Positions 28,376 to 39,603 of a stretch of 64,000 bases of DNA are shown in pieces. Source of the stretch: Pseudomonas sp. S35 (GTDB lineage Bacteria; Pseudomonadota; Gammaproteobacteria; Pseudomonadales; Pseudomonadaceae); assembly GCF_009866765.1 (NCBI RefSeq), contig NZ_CP019431.1:4712001-4776000 (forward strand), written 5' to 3'. Position 1 is the first letter of the stretch. Every line of letters begins with the position of its first letter. The translations under genes and the position numbers were made by a program. The notes below the pieces were generated by a model that saw only the letters and a list, made by a program, of their open reading frames with translations, was not told the origin of the DNA and did no database searches.

Positions 28376-28404
28376 TTGACGGATCCCGTGAGCTGACCTT
28401 AAAT
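28376..28404 (+). promoter_or_regulatory. Putative gin operon promoter at the island's left end
   Basis: TTGACG, 17-base spacer, TTAAAT. Only about 45 bases separate the host gene break from this point, so the promoter is carried by the island itself. The -10 box overlaps the first possible ginA ATG (28403), which argues for the ATG at 28433. Confidence 0.5.
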
Positions 28405-28408
28405 GGAC

Positions 28409-28432
28409 GGACATTCTCTTAGAGTATTGTCC
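28409..28432. promoter_or_regulatory. Imperfect dyad just before ginA
   Basis: GGACA..CTCT-T-AGAG..TGTCC, a 24-base dyad directly abutting the ATG at 28433 and downstream of the promoter. Its place suggests an autoregulatory operator or a recombinase-binding site. Confidence 0.4.
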
Positions 28433-29884
28433 ATGCCTGAATTAGCCGGAGCTTCCCAAGGCAACTATCACAAGGTCATCCTCAAGGATGTCCGTCTTTG
28501 GGAGCCTTGTAATGACCAGGATTCGACTGAATGGCTTGCGCTTCCAGATAACAACACAGGCGACCGCAAGGGTTATTCCATTAGGCCCATGCACCTCCAG
28601 CCGCAGTCCGCTCCACGACTCTACGTAATTGTCCAACCAGATGGGGGTCTTTGGCTTGAAGGCTGCCTCTACTTATTCTGGTGCTGGTCTGTAAAGGGAA
28701 TCAAAGATTCCACCGCTTCGAATGCCGCAGGCGACCTCTCAGACATGATGAACAAACTGACAGACGGTGAAAGAACTTATGACATCTTTCGGGGCCCACA
28801 GTCAGAACGGCCAACGTATTACTACAAATCCGAGTTGAAACTTGAGATTGCTCGGGGCCAAATTAAGCGGAAAACAGCGAATCGCAAAATCGGGAACATG
28901 ATTGGTTTCTACACATGGAAAGTAATGTGCCGGAACTTTAAGCCCGAAGCTGAAATGTGGATATCGACAGTTAAGCGCCGTCGTTATACAGACGCGCATG
29001 GAGTCGTCCAAGTGAAGGAAGTGATGGCGACTGATTTGCCCTTCAAAGACAAAGGATCCATATCGACTGGCCGCTTCATCCGTGATGGGGGCAAGCTCTT
29101 CCCAATTAATCGCGAAGATCAACAGTCACTTCTCGATGCCCTAATCCAACTGGGGAATACCGAAATGCTACTCACCCATGTAGTAGCGCTTACAACAGGA
29201 ATGAGAATTCAGTCAATCCTAACGCTTCGGCACAGTTGCGTAATTAGTGGCATAGGCGCGGACAACGACCCCTTCAAATATTCACTCCATCCTGTAACTA
29301 TAGGAGATGGAGAAATGACCGAAGCTAAAGGCGGCAAAAATCAGGCTGTCGAAATGCCCGCATGGGTTCACCACATGCTAAATATCTACATACATTCTCA
29401 ACGCCATACAGAGCGCGCCGAAAAATCACCAATAACGGACAACGCTAACCAATACGTATTCCTCACACGAACGGGAAAACCATACTACGTTGCAGAAATC
29501 GACCAATCGTTGTTTGGCTTCAGCGCTGAAAAGGGATCTGCAATTCGTCAATTCGCGAAGGTTATTCAGGAACAACTTATGAAAAACAATACATCATTCA
29601 ACTACCAGTTTCACGATCTACGAGCCACGTTCGGAATGAACTTACTCGAGGACTATATGCAAAGATTGAACAAGGGCGAAATGAATCAACTGGAACTGTT
29701 AGACAAACTCAGAAACAGGCTGAATCACGAAGATGTGAACGTAACCTTAGGATACCTCAAGTATAGAAAGGATCATCCGATCCTTGCCCAAGCTCAAACC
29801 GAGGTTGAGGCACACCTGGAAGCCATCGTCCTAAGGGAGATCTCCAAGCATGATAAATCAAGAGCGGCACCCCTACGAAATTAA
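28433..29884 (+). CDS. ginA: GInt tyrosine recombinase GinA
   Basis: 483 residues from the ATG at 28433 (an ATG at 28403 would overlap the -10 box). Tyrosine recombinase signature is complete: Arg258 in TTGMRIQSILTLRHS, His394-Arg397 in HDLRATFG, and the nucleophilic Tyr at about 441-444 in LGYLKYRKDH. The N-terminal 200 residues are a divergent core-binding region. The last 35 bases overlap ginB, so translation is coupled. It is one of three integrases needed together for GInt integration and excision. Confidence 0.87.
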   Translation: MPELAGASQGNYHKVILKDVRLWEPCNDQDSTEWLALPDNNTGDRKGYSIRPMHLQPQSAPRLYVIVQPDGGLWLEGCLYLFWCWSVKGIKDSTASNAAGDLSDMMNKLTDGERTYDIFRGPQSERPTYYYKSELKLEIARGQIKRKTANRKIGNMIGFYTWKVMCRNFKPEAEMWISTVKRRRYTDAHGVVQVKEVMATDLPFKDKGSISTGRFIRDGGKLFPINREDQQSLLDALIQLGNTEMLLTHVVALTTGMRIQSILTLRHSCVISGIGADNDPFKYSLHPVTIGDGEMTEAKGGKNQAVEMPAWVHHMLNIYIHSQRHTERAEKSPITDNANQYVFLTRTGKPYYVAEIDQSLFGFSAEKGSAIRQFAKVIQEQLMKNNTSFNYQFHDLRATFGMNLLEDYMQRLNKGEMNQLELLDKLRNRLNHEDVNVTLGYLKYRKDHPILAQAQTEVEAHLEAIVLREISKHDKSRAAPLRN

Positions 29885-31742
29885 TCTTCAAGAATACACA
29901 CTTGACCAATTCCGCGCTGTAATTACGGCCAGACCTATAGAAGGTCTCGTACTGCAATGCACCGATGACCGTAGAATCGACCTCGGCGCACTCTGTTACA
30001 CCGAACGCAATTTTGATAGCCGAAAAATGCCTAAGCCAGTCCAGGCTGACTCTTTCGCCGCTCATCGCACACCTTACATTCAACATTGGTGTCTCGAGTA
30101 CGCCGCAGCGTACCATCTGGGTGGTAGTCCATATACCCTATATACAAATGCGGTGGAGCTGGTGGCGTTTGGTGACTGGTCTGATGACAATGGACACAAT
30201 GATTTTCTCGAGTGTGCGAATTCTTACAAGCGGGCTCTTGATGGATACACTCATCATTTGATCACTGAAATGAACCGTGAAGACGGAATTTCTGAATACA
30301 CGGCCAGCCGACTCCAATCTCAAGTATTGAGAACCGCTTCGCTTTTTTACCCAGTAGCCGCTATCAATTTTCGAAACGACTTACCCATCATCTCTGCTAA
30401 TAGTTCCTCTTCAAATCCTACGAAGACACCATCAGAGCAAGCCATGGCCGAGCATTTAGTGGTCTGCCAATACTTGTTTGACGGCCTCGCCGACTTCGTT
30501 CTTCAGAAAAAGTCTTTTCCCCATCGAATTCCGTACATGGAAACTGAAGCACTTTTGTTACCTGCTGAATATGCAATCACAACGCCGGCGATTATTGACT
30601 CTACCTGGAAGGTTGGCCATAGCGTCATTTGGGATTATCGGTTGGGCGAAGTGAACTCTCTCGAACAGTGCATGGTGAAAGCAAACCAGTCCCGTCATCA
30701 ACTAATACCCCAACGAGAGCAAGCGCTTGAGCTTCTTCGAAACGCAAATGCTGACATTTATCACCAGAAGCGTATGTGGCTCGCAGGGTTGGCCCAAGAT
30801 GCGTTTATCTCCATGTTTGTTGCAAACGCAGGTATAAACGAATCGCAGCTAAGAAGGCTTCTTTGGTCTGAAACTTATGAGACGTCCACGAGCGACCATG
30901 CAGGCTTCGTCGTCATAAAATACCGGGCTGGCGACATGGAGCAGCAGTTTGAGATCAAAAAGACATTTCATAAGCAATTTACCAAATTTCTTAAGCTACG
31001 TGGTTTTCTATGTCGCAAGAAGACTTCCACCTACTTATTTATAAATTACAAGAAAAACAACACGGCGAATCGCCCTATCAAAGCTAACACCATTCACAGC
31101 TTTAACTCTCAGGTACGCAGCTTCCTTGACCCTTTACATCAGGGGCTAAACTTCCAAGGCTTGAGAAAGTACAAGTCCGTCTACCTGCTATCCCAAAACT
31201 ATACTATCAGCACCGTTTCTGCAGTAATGCAGAACAGCAGTGACACCATTTTGAAACATTATGCACAAGCGGAAGAGAAGCAAGCAATAGACGAGATATC
31301 CACCACATTAAGCTATGTCATCACCATTCTGGAGCGCGAACTTAAACTCCCTACCCCAGGGGGAGGATGTTCCGGGGAGCCTCCTTCTGAGGTAGAGGAA
31401 ACGCCGGAGAACTATCAGCCTGATTGTCGAAACTTTGTTGGGTGTGTTTTCTGCGATGAGTTTCGATTGCACGCTGATGAAGACTCAGTACGCAAATTGC
31501 TCAGCATGCGATACGTAACCAGAGAAAGATTGTCTTCATGCGAGGACATAAAGCAATTTAATGCGGTACATGGCAAAGCCATTGAAAAAATCGACTCTAT
31601 CCTGGCAGAGCTCTTAGAATTAAGGCCAGACATGAAGCCTTTGATAGAACGCGTGCAGGATGAAGTTGAGCTAGAATACAAACTGTCTCCCTACTGGGAG
31701 TCCCTCTACGGGCGTTTACTTCGACTCAAGGTGATCAAATGA
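29850..31742 (+). CDS. ginB: GInt recombinase-like protein GinB
   Basis: 630 residues. The C-terminal half retains a tyrosine-recombinase-like fold, but with altered motifs: NAGINESQLRRLLW where box I is expected (about residue 328), FQGLRKYKSVYLLSQ in place of HxxR (about 435), and a Tyr in TILKHYAQ (about 470). A Cys cluster CRNFVGCVFC near 530 suggests zinc binding. It may act as a structural partner rather than a full catalyst. RBS GGGAG is 8 bases before ATG. The stop overlaps ginC (ATGA). Confidence 0.82.
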   Translation: MINQERHPYEINLQEYTLDQFRAVITARPIEGLVLQCTDDRRIDLGALCYTERNFDSRKMPKPVQADSFAAHRTPYIQHWCLEYAAAYHLGGSPYTLYTNAVELVAFGDWSDDNGHNDFLECANSYKRALDGYTHHLITEMNREDGISEYTASRLQSQVLRTASLFYPVAAINFRNDLPIISANSSSSNPTKTPSEQAMAEHLVVCQYLFDGLADFVLQKKSFPHRIPYMETEALLLPAEYAITTPAIIDSTWKVGHSVIWDYRLGEVNSLEQCMVKANQSRHQLIPQREQALELLRNANADIYHQKRMWLAGLAQDAFISMFVANAGINESQLRRLLWSETYETSTSDHAGFVVIKYRAGDMEQQFEIKKTFHKQFTKFLKLRGFLCRKKTSTYLFINYKKNNTANRPIKANTIHSFNSQVRSFLDPLHQGLNFQGLRKYKSVYLLSQNYTISTVSAVMQNSSDTILKHYAQAEEKQAIDEISTTLSYVITILERELKLPTPGGGCSGEPPSEVEETPENYQPDCRNFVGCVFCDEFRLHADEDSVRKLLSMRYVTRERLSSCEDIKQFNAVHGKAIEKIDSILAELLELRPDMKPLIERVQDEVELEYKLSPYWESLYGRLLRLKVIK

Positions 31743-33739
31743 CAGACAACACTCAAAATTCGGGTCGAGCCCACTCTAATAGTTTTTCTGTTTTTCCCAC
31801 CGATCTCAGCTTTCTGGGCACAGATGTATTCTATGGAATGTCCTTTGCTAGACTCGATTCGAACACGGTGGTTTCCCGCACGCAAAACGGTGAAATCCTG
31901 TCACGACTATCATCCGACGAGTGGATTCTTCCCGCCTTTGCTTTCCATGTGGGCGACAATATCTATTTTAATTTCCTGCCATTCTACAACGTTTGCGATC
32001 ACAAAAACCATAACGTTGAGACTTGCAAAAAGCTTTTCATTATCAAGATGTTTTCAAAAAATCTGAAAAGTGGTCGACCACTACGATTGAGCACCATGCA
32101 CTCAACGCATCAACTGCTCGCTAAAATCAATGACCATTGCGTATTACACAATCTTAAGCTGGAAAGCATTTTCGAAGAGTTTGACCTTTTCAAAAATTTT
32201 CAAGAGGAACTGACTCCTAGCATGAATAAAGCGCTGGTTGCGCTTGTCCGAACTTTGAACAGCATTGACAGCCTTGAACGCGGATTCCCATTGAATGGAA
32301 CAATATTTCCATACATGCAAAAAGCAGCAAAAGCCATTAGAACTGAGGGCAAACAATTCCCTATCATCCCCAGCAGGATACTTCTATTCAAATATCGCCA
32401 ATATCACGCTCACATAGATGACTTCTTAGAACATCACCAAAATTTATTCGCCTTGTTAGATCGCGCAGCGGAAAACCCGTACTATGGGAAATCCAATAAA
32501 ATCCACACCAATCCAAATACGAGAGCCTCAAAACTAGCGACGGCGGAACACTTAGCGCTGCATATAGATAATCCAACCAATTTCAAGAAAGCTGTTCAAG
32601 AATACAATCTTGATACCTTGTGCGAAAAATATCAATGGAAGGCGATCATTAATGTTCTTGGCTTTATTACTAAAGTATCGCACTGCGCCAAGAGCCTGAT
32701 CCACCTATACACCTTGATGCGCGACCACGAAGTTAAAGGATTAACCACCGATTGCTTAGAACGCGTTAAGGGATGGAATAATGATGCACTCTACGTCGCC
32801 GGCATCACGACAAAACTCTATAGCACATCGAAGCCGACAAAATGGATTACCACAGATGCAATCCTAAAACCGGTCGACACTCTTACCAAAATCAACCGAT
32901 TTCTCTCACCGCATTTCAAAACCCCCAATAACCACCTTTTAATTTCGGCAGCAGTACACCCTGTTGCAAATGCCAAACCGTCGAAGGACTACTTGGTAAA
33001 AAGAATGGGAGTGGAGGCTGGGTTAGACCCTATACTCATTACAGAGGCTGACATTCAAGAACTTGAAGCAGTCGACCCCCTGAGAAACTGGCGTAGCGAT
33101 CCGAAATACAAGATAGGAGCTCCTTGGATAATATCTTCTCATCAATTTCGTCGCACCATGGCAGTATTTTGCGCGCAAACAGGACTCATCACTTTACCTT
33201 CGTTAAAGAGGTTATTGGGACATCTGACCAAGGTGATGAGCCTCTACTATACTAGGGGATGCTCCGCTCAGAATTACCACTTCAACCTTATCAATCCTGA
33301 GCTCGCAGCCGAGCTCAGGAGGGCAAAATCCGAAGCTGACGGTGCCATGTATATTCGTGAAGCACTAAGAACCTCAGAAAAACTGCTAGGCCTCAAAGGT
33401 ATGGATATCTCAGGCCAGCGCTCAAGTTCCGTTTGGGTAGATCGCGCCGTAGCTGAGACGGTGCAACTAGCAGCTAAAGGCCTAGCGGCCTACACCGAGA
33501 TCCCACTAGGTGGTTGCGCCTCGCCCGTGCCCTGTGATAAGCGTGCTCATGGTAATTTTTTCACGTGCCCTGGATGCCGCCACCTAATCGGGAAACAATC
33601 TGTCCTAGATGCCACATTAGAAATCATGAAGTTTGATATTTCAGAGCTTGACTCCGACAGCATGGAGTACAAAGCTGAAATGCAAAATCTTAAAGATTTT
33701 ACTGAGCTTCGTGACAGGCTTATAGCCAAATCAAAATAA
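31739..33739 (+). CDS. ginC: GInt tyrosine recombinase GinC
   Basis: 666 residues, AT-rich. Recombinase motifs: LMRDHEVKGL (box I Arg, about residue 330), His468-x-x-Arg471-Arg in HQFRRTMAVF, LKRLLGHLTKVMSLYY with Tyr503/504. The C-terminal extension has CASPVPC ... CPGCRH (Cys 593-613), a probable zinc site, like that of GinB. Coupled to ginB by a four-base overlap. Confidence 0.85.
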   Translation: MTDNTQNSGRAHSNSFSVFPTDLSFLGTDVFYGMSFARLDSNTVVSRTQNGEILSRLSSDEWILPAFAFHVGDNIYFNFLPFYNVCDHKNHNVETCKKLFIIKMFSKNLKSGRPLRLSTMHSTHQLLAKINDHCVLHNLKLESIFEEFDLFKNFQEELTPSMNKALVALVRTLNSIDSLERGFPLNGTIFPYMQKAAKAIRTEGKQFPIIPSRILLFKYRQYHAHIDDFLEHHQNLFALLDRAAENPYYGKSNKIHTNPNTRASKLATAEHLALHIDNPTNFKKAVQEYNLDTLCEKYQWKAIINVLGFITKVSHCAKSLIHLYTLMRDHEVKGLTTDCLERVKGWNNDALYVAGITTKLYSTSKPTKWITTDAILKPVDTLTKINRFLSPHFKTPNNHLLISAAVHPVANAKPSKDYLVKRMGVEAGLDPILITEADIQELEAVDPLRNWRSDPKYKIGAPWIISSHQFRRTMAVFCAQTGLITLPSLKRLLGHLTKVMSLYYTRGCSAQNYHFNLINPELAAELRRAKSEADGAMYIREALRTSEKLLGLKGMDISGQRSSSVWVDRAVAETVQLAAKGLAAYTEIPLGGCASPVPCDKRAHGNFFTCPGCRHLIGKQSVLDATLEIMKFDISELDSDSMEYKAEMQNLKDFTELRDRLIAKSK

Positions 33740-33764
33740 TTTTTTTGTTAAGTATGGAGCGAGC

Positions 33765-34208
33765 ATGTCTACTACTGAAAACTTTACGACCACCCTTAAG
33801 CCTTATTATGACGCCCTCAATCGCATTATCGACGGCTCACCCGACATTGTAGACAAGGATACTAAAATCACCTTGAACGCTGTAGCTATTGAGGCTGGCA
33901 AAAGCCCAGGAAGCATTAAGAAGAGCCGAGACGTATATAAGCCACTGATCGAAGAGATTTTAACCCGAGCCGAGCAACAAAAAAAGCTGGTAAAACCGGG
34001 CGCCTCACAAGTTCAGCATGCCAAAATCAAAGCCAGCAAGGCAAAAGCAGTTGCTGATGATTACAAATCTAAATATGAGGCAGCGTTAGCACGGGAACTC
34101 ATGTTAATAATTGCTTGGGATGACGCCAACCAAGAACTACGAAAAGGCAAAGTCGTACCGATAAGGCCCCATGTTAGGCCTCTGACTGATTCTAAAGAGA
34201 AAGAATAA
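33765..34208 (+). CDS. ginD: GInt small protein GinD
   Basis: 147 residues. Charged and helical: a central VAIEAGKSPGSIKKSRDVYKP resembles a helix-turn-helix and the following KASKAKAVADDYKSKYEAAL is coiled-coil-like. It closes the gin operon 25 bases after ginC (RBS GGAG). In GInts the fourth gene codes for a small putative helix-loop-helix protein essential for integration and excision. Likely DNA-binding accessory or directionality factor. Confidence 0.78.
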   Translation: MSTTENFTTTLKPYYDALNRIIDGSPDIVDKDTKITLNAVAIEAGKSPGSIKKSRDVYKPLIEEILTRAEQQKKLVKPGASQVQHAKIKASKAKAVADDYKSKYEAALARELMLIIAWDDANQELRKGKVVPIRPHVRPLTDSKEKE

Positions 34209-34481: not shown

Positions 34482-35600
34482 CTAGCCCGCTTCCCACGGC
34501 AGATCCACCGGCAGCTCAATTTGCAATTTGCTGGCCGGAATTAAGCTCAGATCTGCGGAGACTTCCCTAACCATCTGTCGCTGAAACTCGGCACCTGCAT
34601 ATCGCTCCAAAAGTGGCGCACGCGTCAGTAATACTCGAACGCGAGCCTTCAAGCGCTGCCCCTCTGGATGCCCACAAGCGATCAACCTGCCTATGCGTCC
34701 CATTACTCGACGCATCTCCTTTTCATCATCAGCGGACAGATGACCTGAATTACCCTCGACGCGATCCTCCAGCTGTTTCACGGCGGCGCGGATAGCCAAT
34801 CGGTGTTTTTTGGGAAGCCCTGTTATTGGCCCGCTCACCACTAATCCGGTCACGGTGACGGCGTCAGCTTTATCGCCAGTAATCAGTGCTTGCCCGCGCT
34901 TACGAACATGCAGCTTGCTTCGCTTCTGCAGGCAGCCTTTCTGACCGAGCATCCATGTGACAGAGGCAACAACTTGGGTGGTAGTAGCTTGATCAATACG
35001 AGTTTTGCAAGAAACAGTGATGTCATCTGCGAAGCGCGAATACGCCAGTCCCTGAGCTTTAAAGCGAGTGACGAGCGCCGGCTCGATATCCCAAAACACT
35101 AGGTTGGCCAAGTAGCTACTTGTACTCGCCCCTTGTGGAACCTGGCCCTCACGAGTAACTAGATCCGCAAGCAGAGTGGCTACATCTGCGGAGAAACGGA
35201 AGAGACCCACGAACAAGCGATGAATGTGCTCGTTTGTAATTGACGGGAAGAAATCAGCGATGTCCTGAAGGATGACTGTCTTGGCGCCGGTATGAACCCG
35301 AGCGTTCGAGTAAATGCTGCGGGGTAGCTTGGGATCTCTGATACCGCCGTGCAGGTATCCAGGGAACGAAACCTTGCTGAGGATCCGATCCACGATCTTG
35401 CGCTGGATCGTCTTCAGAGGCTCATGAGCGTCATAGGTATGTCTGGGTGTTATGCCGTCTTTTTTTGTTTGCGGGACATATCGATAAAGGCGAGAGCTAC
35501 GATGAGCAAGTGCGATTAGCCTCTCGACAGGCTCTCCGAGAGCACGTGCTAAGGCGCTGATGCTGTGGATAGGGCTATGAGGATAGAACGGAGCATCCAT
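34482..35600 (-). CDS. Retron-type reverse transcriptase
   Basis: 372 residues from the ATG at 35600, with GGAAG 7 bases upstream; an in-frame TTG two codons earlier lacks a usable RBS. Retron marks: NARVH (residues 99-103, the NAxxH motif), DIADFFPSI (113-121), PQGASTSSYLANL, the catalytic FADD (190-193, with Phe replacing Tyr of YADD) and VTGLVV (250-255, the retron VTG motif that binds msr). The rest is a basic thumb domain without a fused effector. It should make msDNA from an adjacent msr-msd RNA. First cargo gene after gin. Confidence 0.85.
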   Translation of the reverse strand: MDAPFYPHSPIHSISALARALGEPVERLIALAHRSSRLYRYVPQTKKDGITPRHTYDAHEPLKTIQRKIVDRILSKVSFPGYLHGGIRDPKLPRSIYSNARVHTGAKTVILQDIADFFPSITNEHIHRLFVGLFRFSADVATLLADLVTREGQVPQGASTSSYLANLVFWDIEPALVTRFKAQGLAYSRFADDITVSCKTRIDQATTTQVVASVTWMLGQKGCLQKRSKLHVRKRGQALITGDKADAVTVTGLVVSGPITGLPKKHRLAIRAAVKQLEDRVEGNSGHLSADDEKEMRRVMGRIGRLIACGHPEGQRLKARVRVLLTRAPLLERYAGAEFQRQMVREVSADLSLIPASKLQIELPVDLPWEAG

Positions 35601-35618
35601 GTCCAAGCTTCCGTTGAT

Positions 35619-35642
35619 GGGCCGGCCCCGAAGAACCGGCCC
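35619..35642 (-). other. UUCG-capped hairpin between companion ORF and RT
   Basis: On the minus strand, GGGCCGG-TTC then TTCG then GGG-CCGGCCC: seven GC pairs plus two G-U and one C-G, closed by a TTCG tetraloop. There is no T tract, so it is a stability or processing element of the transcript rather than a terminator. It lies 19 bases upstream of the RT start. Confidence 0.65.
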
Positions 35643-35672
35643 CTCTGAATTCGAATGATGTGGTTTGTTGTG

Positions 35673-35927
35673 TCATGGGAGATTCTCAATAAATGGAATC
35701 ACCACTGTCTCGACAAAATCCCAGCCCTCAACAGCCTTTTCCCATAACCAGATGCATAGACGAATACGTGCGATCCACTTGAGCAGGGTTACTGCCTTCG
35801 CCTTTACCCACGCAATCCGACCCGCTTTAGGTTCTTGAGATGGAGCTATCTCGATGACACGAGCATCTTCATTGTTGTGCATAGACTGACGCGCCTTGCG
35901 GCGCGCTAGGTTCTTTAAATTAACCAT
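35673..35927 (-). CDS. Small companion protein of the retron RT (84 aa)
   Basis: From the ATG at 35927: MVNLKNLARRKARQSMHNNE, basic N-terminus, then a hydrophobic/aromatic amphipathic segment VTLLKWIARIRLCIWLWEKA and WDFVETVVIPFIENLP. It lies on the same strand directly upstream of the RT (73 bases), so it is cotranscribed. I do not recognise the family. A short membrane-active peptide is one reading and would suit a retron effector. Low certainty that the frame is used, as no strong RBS is evident. Confidence 0.5.
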   Translation of the reverse strand: MVNLKNLARRKARQSMHNNEDARVIEIAPSQEPKAGRIAWVKAKAVTLLKWIARIRLCIWLWEKAVEGWDFVETVVIPFIENLP

Positions 35928-36420
35928 GACTGATGTTCCCAACGACAGGCGAAATTGCCCCGCCGCCAAGCATTCCGGGCCGAAAGGAACGCTGAAGATG
36001 CCACTACAAACCACAGTTCTGCTTATCAAGTCCCTTGATAAGCCGTCCGCCGCATTACCGCCGCATCACATTTCGCCTCAACGCATCAAACGATCAGAGA
36101 CAAACCCTTGGATCACCTTTGGGATTGCCCTAGGCGCTAAGCACTGAGGAGCGATGGGCAGCATCAACCTGTGCGGCGAAGAAAGCCAAGGCGAACACCA
36201 AGGCGACCAGTTTCCCGGTCAAAAACCGCAAGCCCAAATTTCAGTCATATTTAAAGAGCACTTGGGTGGTAGCACCCAACAGATTCAGTATTTATCAGAA
36301 TAAACAAACCGGCGACAACTGTTATTTGTTGCAAGAGTTGTTTTTCGTCTAAGTCGTATTTTTGACTATATAAAGCGTCAAAATTTAAGTGTCGCTCGTA
36401 TTAATGCCACTTAGGAAATT
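35928..36420 (-). ncRNA. Candidate retron msr-msd leader region
   Basis: About 490 bases upstream of the retron genes hold many hairpins on the minus strand: GCTTATCAAG-GGA-CTTGATAAGC (36020-36042, perfect 10 bp), TTGGGTG-CTAC-CACCCAA (about 36264-36281), and GACC..GGTC. A TGCTTAGCGCC stretch (about 36134-36144) contains the TTAGCG seen at the branch-G of known msr RNAs. I could not find convincing a1/a2 pairing, so the exact bounds are open. An AT-rich promoter-like block lies at 36360-36420. Two short plus-strand frames (35998-36147 and 36154-36303) also lie here and are less likely. Confidence 0.4.
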
Positions 36421-36619: not shown

Positions 36620-37450
36620 TTGTCTGATTTTTCCCCTCTCAGCATTTTCAAATCGCAAGCCAAGCAGCATGGTCGCCTTCACGACATGAAGCTTTCTGCT
36701 GCCCAAGAAGCGCTTGCGCGCCAGGCAGGGTTCGAGGAGTACCACGAGCTCGTCGTTGTGGCCCAGCGAACCCCTGCGGATGCTCGTTTGATGCTCGCCG
36801 CCTTTGGCGTGCGTGACTTCAAGGACGCGATCCACGAGGACGATGTGTTCTCCGAGCTGGATCAAGAGCTTGAGCACCTGCTTTCCAGCGCCATGGACGA
36901 GACCAACGCCAGTGAGTTCGCCATCGGTGATAGCGAGGTGGACTCAGTCGCCTATGACGATGCGACTGGCGCACTCAGGTTGGGCATGTCCATCGACTGG
37001 GAAGGGCAGCAGGATCCTGGCCGTGTCTACTACGGTAGGGTTTTTTTCCTTAAGGCGGATGTTAATCTGATTCGGCGGAATGGCAGGTGGTCGCTCGGTG
37101 AGGACGGTGTTTGCATCATCACTAGCGAAACGGATGCAGACCGTGATCGCAGGACTGAATGGGAGGACAGGGCGCACCAACAGGCCGCTGAAAGCGGGGA
37201 GCACCGTCCCAGCATTAGCATGGCGCAAGCGCTGGCCAGTGGCCTTGAGATATCCCTAGAGGATGCGGAGCTTCTGGCAGACGCGGAAGTTAGGGGGCAC
37301 ACCTCGGATGACGGGATGATCCACAACTATTGGGTGGACGTTGAGCCGTATGCCGAGGGAGCTCTGCGAGCAGATCTGTTGGCCCGGTTCGGCACCTTGG
37401 AGTTCGAGGTGGACGTCAATTCCTTCGACGACTTCCATCCTGAAATGTGA
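36620..37450 (+). CDS. Hypothetical protein (276 aa), acidic
   Basis: Starts with TTG (GGAG 9 bases upstream). The N-terminal 50 residues (IFKSQAKQHGRLHDMKLSAA then QEALARQAGFEEYHELV) resemble a short helical domain seen at the start of several unrelated bacterial proteins. The remainder is acidic (EHLLSSAMDETNASEFAIGD, SEVDSVAYDDATGALRLGMS) and beta-rich, without membrane segments. I do not recognise it. It directly precedes an antitoxin-like gene with no gap, which may be chance. Confidence 0.65.
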   Translation: MSDFSPLSIFKSQAKQHGRLHDMKLSAAQEALARQAGFEEYHELVVVAQRTPADARLMLAAFGVRDFKDAIHEDDVFSELDQELEHLLSSAMDETNASEFAIGDSEVDSVAYDDATGALRLGMSIDWEGQQDPGRVYYGRVFFLKADVNLIRRNGRWSLGEDGVCIITSETDADRDRRTEWEDRAHQQAAESGEHRPSISMAQALASGLEISLEDAELLADAEVRGHTSDDGMIHNYWVDVEPYAEGALRADLLARFGTLEFEVDVNSFDDFHPEM

Positions 37451-38845: not shown

Positions 38846-39091
38846 TCATCGCTCGGCAAGGCCCAACCACTCAGGCGGACTATCAATGCTGGGTTTGACC
38901 CAGCCTACCCAGTGCGTGCAACTGGTAGTGATGACGGTTTGATACAGGTGATCCGCTTCGAGACGGAGTCGTTCGATCTCTTCGGCTGCTCGCCCTTCAT
39001 CTACCGCCTTCTGATGAGCTCGGATGGCCTGGAGGGCCTGCTGCAAGAGCGGCTCGCCGGCCTCGGCCATGCCCAGAAGCGTTCTCTTCAT
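38846..39091 (-). CDS. Small hypothetical protein downstream of the T5orf172 gene (81 aa)
   Basis: MKRTLLGMAEAGEPLLQQAL, then a charged helix QAIRAHQKAVDEGRAAEEIE. The ATG overlaps the preceding gene's stop by four bases, so it is probably translated from the same message. No known family, membrane segment or signal. Coupling to a GIY-YIG-like gene is the only hint. Confidence 0.6.
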   Translation of the reverse strand: MKRTLLGMAEAGEPLLQQALQAIRAHQKAVDEGRAAEEIERLRLEADHLYQTVITTSCTHWVGWVKPSIDSPPEWLGLAER

Positions 39092-39603
39092 CGCGATCTT
39101 CCGGATCGGTTTGCCCGATGGGCCTTTAGGTGCTCAAGCTCTTGGTGCCAGACCACCACGAACTTCTCGAAATCGCGCAGATACATACTCGACGCGTCTT
39201 GAAAGTGCATACCGCAAAAGCTTCCGCAAAAAGGGCAGCACTCGTGCCATTCCAGGTTGCCCCAGTTCCATACGCCGAGGTACTCGGGGACACCATCCCG
39301 ATCATGGCTGGTTACCTCAAAGGAATCCTCAGTCTTACCGACAAACCCATCGATGCCAAAGTGCTCAAGGATGGGTAAAATGTCCGCAGGATCCAGGCTG
39401 AACCATTCACCAGTGCTACGTAGGTGCGAGAATTGCTGATGAATCTCTTTTTCCAACCGTACGTCATCATCTGTACGAATCCACCCCAGAAGTAAGAGCT
39501 TCCTCGGATTCCCGGTTTGAAGCCCTTTTCTGCGGCGCTCGATGTCCTTGGCCCGACCTATCTTCACCTTCTCATTACTGTCTTCAATGAAAAAATAGAT
39601 CAT
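39088..39603 (-). CDS. T5orf172/GIY-YIG-like domain protein
   Basis: 171 residues. N-terminus MIYFFIEDSNEKVKIGRAKD followed by IERRRKGLQTGNPRKLLLLG matches the MUG113/T5orf172 branch of the GIY-YIG fold (K-IG-A-D-RR--LQTGNP--L). The C-terminal part has a Cys/His group HECCPFCGSFCGMHF that may bind zinc. Possibly a DNA-binding or nicking protein of phage or plasmid origin. It starts a two-gene unit; a pair of palindromes lies about 130 bases upstream. Confidence 0.78.
   Translation of the reverse strand: MIYFFIEDSNEKVKIGRAKDIERRRKGLQTGNPRKLLLLGWIRTDDDVRLEKEIHQQFSHLRSTGEWFSLDPADILPILEHFGIDGFVGKTEDSFEVTSHDRDGVPEYLGVWNWGNLEWHECCPFCGSFCGMHFQDASSMYLRDFEKFVVVWHQELEHLKAHRANRSGRSR

Follow-up and report, generated by a model that had tools for sequence, protein, structure and literature searches.

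A Pseudomonas retron of type VI lineage that lacks an HTH gene and carries a small protein gene between its proposed RNA arms

Retrons are reverse-transcriptase elements of a kind employed against phages, and types V and VI are little understood. In a passage of a 2021 paper (PMC8541194), type VI is described as a reverse transcriptase (RT) with a DNA-binding protein and a small auxiliary protein. The PADLOC set for type VI consists of SP_VI, HTH_VI, and RT_VI, and in two of the type VI loci that we compared (L052 and L055) the genes for the small protein, the HTH protein, and the RT are consecutive in that order. For the type V element Retron-Sen1 (Se72), section 8 of a review (PMC6868368) mentions an open reading frame with hairpins that is flanked by repeats. 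The same review describes the msr-msd transcript as ending on either side in complementary arms, a1 and a2, of 8 to 30 bases. Outside retrons, boxA elements upstream of CRISPR arrays are described in a passage of a further paper (PMC7862264).

The locus reported here lies in a stretch of 64,000 nucleotides from the genome of Pseudomonas sp. S35 (the window, to which all positions refer). Read along the minus strand, the order is a conserved noncoding leader, an 84-amino-acid frame, a UUCG-capped hairpin, and an RT gene. The RT gene (34482..35600, minus strand) encodes 372 amino acids from an ATG, or 374 if translation starts at a TTG at 35606. Retron-type RTs are marked by the motifs NAxxH, VTG, and [YF]xDD, and the window RT has NARVH, VTG, and FADD. 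PADLOC models scored it at 246 bits (RT_VI), 240 bits (RT_V), and 169 bits (RT_IV), which places RT_VI ahead of RT_V by 6 bits, and sequence searches also matched it to the solved retron RTs Ec86, Kva2, and Ec67. It gave a single match in the whole genome, which is one 6.6-Mb contig. The preliminary description had assigned the RT to a retron lineage from its motifs; PADLOC, the matches to solved RTs, and the phylogeny all agree with that assignment.

A maximum likelihood tree was built from 41 RTs, 20 of them rows of the clade that includes the window; 26 loci were kept out, most of them as near-copies (L030 and L035 are not near-copies). The 20 clade rows grouped together (99/99) inside type VI, so that what had been presented as an unplaced retron type has a position within a catalogued one. 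The sister of the clade is L059, which encodes a small protein, an HTH protein, and an RT (97/91), and type V, with its RT and cold-shock gene, formed another RT clade (100/99). Branching order within type VI is unsure because several of its branches are long, and one locus (L012), whose upstream DNA lies off the contig, is classed as type VI from its RT alone. FADD occurs in all 20 clade rows and is therefore a trait of the clade and no oddity of the window copy; the NAxxH pattern was found in 18/20 rows and VTG in 19/20.

We searched for HTH and cold-shock genes by tblastn (E ≤ 1e-3), taking five HTH proteins of type VI and a pair of cold-shock proteins as queries and covering about 1.5 to 6 kb of flank in the clade loci and 64 kb for the window. 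HTH genes were detected in nine type VI loci and cold-shock genes in nine type V loci, the query loci being counted among these positives; none of either kind was detected in the window or in any clade locus. The window thus combines an RT of type VI lineage, by best-scoring model and by nesting in the tree, with the absence of an HTH_VI gene between small protein and RT, an absence common to all clade loci, and no cold-shock-domain gene follows its RT as in type V (Se72). The simplest reading is one loss of HTH in the clade. The unit had been called minimal, and it is so in having an RT and a small protein without HTH; since the RT nests in type VI, which is catalogued with a small protein plus HTH, this minimal state looks like HTH loss from type VI.

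The small protein gene (35673..35927, minus strand, ATG start, stop codon included) and the UUCG-capped hairpin between it and the RT (35619..35642, minus strand) are both present as first noted. The 84-amino-acid frame had no match to PADLOC, Pfam, or NCBIfam models at E ≤ 0.1 and none to PHROGs at E ≤ 0.01. A single-sequence search returned 19 homologues and a profile search 65, and the frame, 77 to 86 codons long, is present in 20/20 clade tree rows, which argues that it is not a chance open reading frame. Over the 33 clade pairs reported, dN/dS ranged from 0.09 to 0.66 (the full set was 44 pairs, of which 11 with fewer than 8 changes were omitted); the window and L006, for example, differ by 17 synonymous and 6 nonsynonymous changes. 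Judged by these substitutions, the clade frame is evolving as a coding gene. In four type V pairs, dN/dS of the small frame was 0.37 to 1.09. Compared with 200 synonymous-codon shuffles, the small gene folds more stably than the mean in 17/20 loci, with z ≤ -2 in 5/20 and a weak z of -0.86 in the window itself.

The clade small proteins share a conserved MHNxEDARV block and are basic, with a net charge of +5 in the window and +1 to +16 across the clade. The highest 19-residue mean hydropathy is 1.13 in the window protein and reaches 1.79 in a relative (L028), the usual threshold being near 1.6. AlphaFold2 modeled the window protein as one long helix, over residues 34 to 81, and two short ones (mean pLDDT, 69; pTM, 0.26). 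With moderate confidence, these predictions suggest an amphipathic protein rather than one with a clear membrane span, where the preliminary description had conjectured a membrane-active peptide. SP_VI models did not match it at E ≤ 0.1, and a profile comparison, which spanned 14 columns, gave an E value of 0.13. We also considered whether the small proteins of the clade, type V, and type VI are homologous and dropped the idea, as one-against-one comparisons (E 0.13 to 0.49) did not show it. The type VI sister L059 has a look-alike block, MHDDVDARV, again with no cross-type homology detected.

At the head of the predicted RNA is a boxB-like hairpin (36262..36279, minus strand; 7-bp stem, 4-nt loop), 3 nt upstream of the core of a boxA-like element, TGCTCTTTAAA (36250..36260, minus strand). 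We read three of this genome's five rRNA leaders, in all of which a hairpin precedes GCTCTTTAACAA; the retron leader has the same rrn-type arrangement, hairpin then boxA, near its presumed transcript start. The exact 11-mer TGCTCTTTAAM occurs once in the genome, at the retron. A boxA-like 8-mer stands at the RNA head in 30/35 loci (clade, 17/17; type VI, 6/9; type V, 7/9), a count that does not include L012, and is absent from three type IV loci; in L030, L053, and L054 it is present at another place in the leader as well. A hairpin precedes boxA in all 14 loci measured (stem of 6 to 7 bp, spacer of 3 to 7 nt), and the hairpin and boxA pair arose 11 times in 1,400 shuffled leaders. A promoter scan gave no site on the retron's strand, and our literature search found no paper joining "boxA" and "retron." By analogy with rRNA operons, the leader may act in antitermination.

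Between boxA and the small gene, the leader contains a 5' structured domain (36044..36240, minus strand) with a covarying hairpin at 36205 to 36220, and then a hairpin, GCTTATCAAG/ACTTGATAAGC (36021..36043, minus strand), in which relatives change letters and keep the stem. Just downstream is the proposed arm a1, TGTGGTTTGT (36006..36015, minus strand), and then a hairpin with TTTCGG in its loop (35970..35992, minus strand), which we take to resemble known msr loops. The leader alignment placed the exact complement of a1, ACAAACCACA, 4 nt past the stop codon of the small gene (35659..35668, minus strand); this is the proposed arm a2, and the small gene is nested between the two. The pairing was compared across loci. 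Within the clade, 3 of the 10 pairs change on both sides, since the arms of L027 (TGTAGTTTGT/ACAAACTACA), L022 (TGCGATTTGT/GCAAATCGCA), and L028 (TGTGATTTGTT/AACAGATCACA) all remain complementary. At the same two places, type VI and type V loci have unrelated yet complementary letters, such as AAGGGTTCGT/ACGAACCCTT in L065, GAATGGTCTAC/GTAGGCCATTC in L061, GAAGTTAGGTATCA/TGATACTTAGCTTC in L057, and TGAGTTAAAAGTC/GACTTTTAACTCA in L054.

Summed over 20 loci, the cognate a1:a2 score was 452.5, versus 289.7 ± 12.1 (maximum, 341) in 2,000 mispairings. With fixed windows, 22/26 loci (a set from which most near-copies had been removed) scored at least 20, versus 9/156 control windows. In a 600-nt search of single loci, shuffles scored as high in 31/300 cases for L023 and 59/300 for L025; because single loci are not always striking and clade letters are often identical, the weight of the argument rests on the comparison across loci. 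When the post-stop window was extended to 63 nt from the original 30, at the cost of more chance pairing, 14 bp were found in L052 and 13 bp in L064. The arms of L062 pair over 7 bp, and the clade locus L021, whose RT carries an internal stop, has no unbroken a1:a2 helix. The window thus has complementary flanking arms that form a 10-bp covarying helix, and from their position and the arms described in PMC6868368 we infer that they act as a1 and a2. AGTGG directly follows a1 in the window, and no clear priming-guanosine consensus (TAGC/AGC-like) is found at the a1-msr junction; Se72 is likewise described in that review's account as without an apparent priming-site consensus. The preliminary description had proposed 35,900 to 36,420 for an msr-msd search, an interval that misses a2, the small gene lying between a1 and a2. 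If the element works like Se72, the 36044..36240 domain would be a candidate template for reverse transcription.

Of 25 sources searched with a covariance model of the 128-nt core, three gave a match, namely the window, the type VI locus L059, and the remnant locus L041 (see below), and the other 22 did not; the likeness of the RNA in most type V and VI loci is therefore one of layout and pairing, not of sequence. Rfam had no match in the retron region, nor did it detect a retron RNA in any of six related loci. The stem of the UUCG-capped hairpin, between a2 and the RT, survives letter changes in relatives. A terminator at this hairpin was also considered and is unsupported in the window, where none is listed; T-rich tails, judged by eye only, trail the hairpin in L022 and L027.

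A further helix, P1, pairs the segment directly after boxA (36241..36249, minus strand) with the start region of the small gene (35925..35933, minus strand), overlapping its start codon. The strands are TATGACTGA/TCAGTCATG in the window, CATGGTTA/TAACCATG in L008, CATCGATA/TATCGATG in L028, and TAGTGAA/TTCACTA in L027. In 11 clade loci the cognate sum was 201, versus 149.3 ± 12.2 for mispairings (1/5,000 as high); in 18 loci it was 294, versus 223.6 ± 11.4 (0/5,000 as high). The six type VI loci with boxA have a P1-like pairing on a Shine-Dalgarno-like stretch, and in the seven type V loci tested P1 was not convincing (scores of 9.5 to 16). P1 and a1:a2 interleave and would therefore form a pseudoknot or compete. 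P1 (CATGACT/AGTCATG) was itself tried as the retron a1:a2 and dropped, as the helix that we propose is common to types V and VI and the clade and, in the Se72-type plasmid L054, lies immediately upstream of the RT; P1 is kept as a separate helix.

RT matches at E ≤ 1e-30 were found in 23/398 Pseudomonas genomes; in 16 of these, identity was at least 50%. An order-level search of 293 genomes (E ≤ 1e-40) returned eight RT matches, the window's own and seven outside the genus, all seven of which are type V or type VI loci. By alignment search, the small protein occurs in 10/298 Pseudomonas genomes, nine of which have an RT match (in one, G037, the RT has an internal stop). The tenth, G142, is not among the RT matches and is the sole case of the frame without an RT: its locus (L041) is a remnant without leader or RT, in which a transposase-like stretch is followed by the RNA core and a small gene that is still intact. 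The companion frame is thus conserved with the RT in relatives, as the claim for it had required, and RT-less only in this remnant. Plasmid collections gave 152 matching records and phage collections 36, every one below 60% identity. One clade member (L066; 61% identity) is on an IMG/VR contig, and the 24-nt block that follows the stop codon had no exact match among the viral contigs scanned. L066 adjoins two integrase-like genes, which suggests carriage by a mobile element.

In a comparison of 11 clade loci, no gene besides the RT and the small frame was common to all, and the flanks differed (frames of at least 90 amino acids were listed, and for four loci the small frame was identified separately). 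No known effector gene is adjacent in the window by PADLOC, Pfam, NCBIfam, or tblastn, in line with the preliminary description, and the frames scanned beside the retron gave no strong defense match. Elsewhere in the clade, GajA of Gabija (1,099 bits) is near L001, a type ISP restriction enzyme is beside L008, and a PADLOC HEC-06-like protein is near L005. Directly downstream of the window retron, 28403 to 34208 (plus strand) holds three adjacent frames of 493, 630, and 666 amino acids and one of 147; the 493- and 630-residue frames have weak, subthreshold phage-integrase matches, and this element, which resembles a recombinase trio, was not seen at the matching place in L001 to L003. Upstream, a 276-amino-acid frame (36620 to 37450, plus strand) matches phrog_28020, of unknown function, and its relatives adjoin the retron in L001 to L003. 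A T5orf172/MUG113-domain protein at 39088 to 39603 (minus strand) has a weak match to PADLOC PDC-S57.

Comparison of sequences supports the nested layout, both helices, the coding nature of the small gene, and the absence of HTH and cold-shock genes. The explanation that we favor, and hold to be reasonably probable, is a retron of type VI lineage without HTH whose small gene is nested in its RNA and whose small basic protein is the likely effector. One transcript would carry the boxB/boxA leader, the 5' domain, a1, the msr-like hairpin, the small gene, a2, the UUCG hairpin, and the RT, with the small gene inside the a1:a2 helix and P1 covering its start region. The boxA element would keep RNA polymerase from stopping in the long untranslated RNA, and the RT would bind the folded RNA and make DNA from it. 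In this RNA/RT/DNA state the small protein would be either bound or not made at all; disturbance of the complex by a phage would release the small basic protein, which would then stop growth of the infected cell. The G142 remnant counts against this explanation in keeping an intact small gene without an RT, though its leader is gone too.

It is possible, if rather doubtful, that the small protein is instead a nucleic-acid-binding partner of the RT/RNA/DNA complex (a sensor, chaperone, or antitoxin) and not a toxin, with the harmful step located elsewhere. Its basic charge across the clade, the MHNxEDARV block, and the one long predicted helix would suit such a role, as would the fact that type V and VI loci have a small frame in addition to their CSD or HTH genes. 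Against it, the 11 clade loci compared share no gene beyond the RT and the small frame, and the clade lacks HTH and CSD genes. We give a low probability to a regulatory, leader-peptide-like frame in which translation, and not the product, matters by opening a1:a2 and P1. Such a role is consistent with a start codon within P1, a stop codon 4 nt from a2, the type VI pairing on a Shine-Dalgarno-like stretch, and small proteins without detectable homology among the three groups, but conservation at the amino acid level within the clade (MHNxEDARV) argues against it. Equally improbable, in our judgment, is an ordinary catalogued type VI-like retron in which HTH loss is mechanistically meaningless, or a decaying copy: RT_VI is the best-scoring PADLOC model and type VI is already described in the 2021 passage (PMC8541194) as an RT with DNA-binding and small auxiliary proteins, but the HTH-less clade is well supported (20 rows, 99/99) and its small frame is intact in all 20.

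A more speculative reading, which we regard as unlikely, would apply to this retron and to types V and VI generally. The effector mRNA would be the RNA used for reverse transcription, the two uses being mutually exclusive; ribosomes entering at the P1-masked start and ending beside a2 would undo a1:a2; the element would sense the state of translation (e.g., phage shut-off) and switch between small protein and DNA; and the DNA might be copied from the effector gene itself. The existence of a natural branch reduced to an RT, an RNA, and a single small protein suggests that the small protein is the core partner and that HTH can be dispensed with. From the covarying helices, a1, a2, and the masked start can be located exactly and in a form open to experiment. 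The helices also imply that the small gene has its proper place within the RNA, so that a construct in which the genes are split from the RNA could fail.

Compared with type VI retrons, the window clade has the same RT lineage, the small protein gene first, and the small gene inside a1:a2-like arms, which reach at least 7 bp in 9/9 type VI loci (the full helix of L052, L060, and L064 appears only when the post-stop window is widened). P1-like pairing and boxA are likewise shared with six of the nine. The clade differs in having no HTH gene and in its basic small proteins, which match no SP_VI model, whereas those of the nine type VI loci are neutral or acidic. With type V it shares the boxA leader (7/9 loci) and, immediately upstream of the RT, a small frame set between complementary arms (9/9 loci with at least 7 bp); type V differs in its cold-shock gene after the RT, its separate RT clade, and the lack of a visible P1. 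Nine type V loci (L029 to L032, L053, L054, L057, L062, and L063) have a frame of 58 to 74 amino acids between the arms, upstream of the RT; in the 4-kb plasmid records L053 and L054 this frame is missing from the listed genes, the gene table itself being incomplete, and the downstream gene of L054 is named as a Se72-family effector. Our comparison extends the nested layout of Se72 to type VI and to this clade. Judged without the founding type VI paper's description, the generalized nesting, the boxA leader, and the HTH-less branch look new. The leader would link production of retron RNA with the machinery for antitermination that serves rRNA operons and CRISPR arrays: it has a hairpin and then GCTCTTTAA, as in the three rRNA leaders read, and CRISPR arrays likewise have boxA upstream in the passage cited above (PMC7862264), whereas the boxA of the window precedes a retron RNA.
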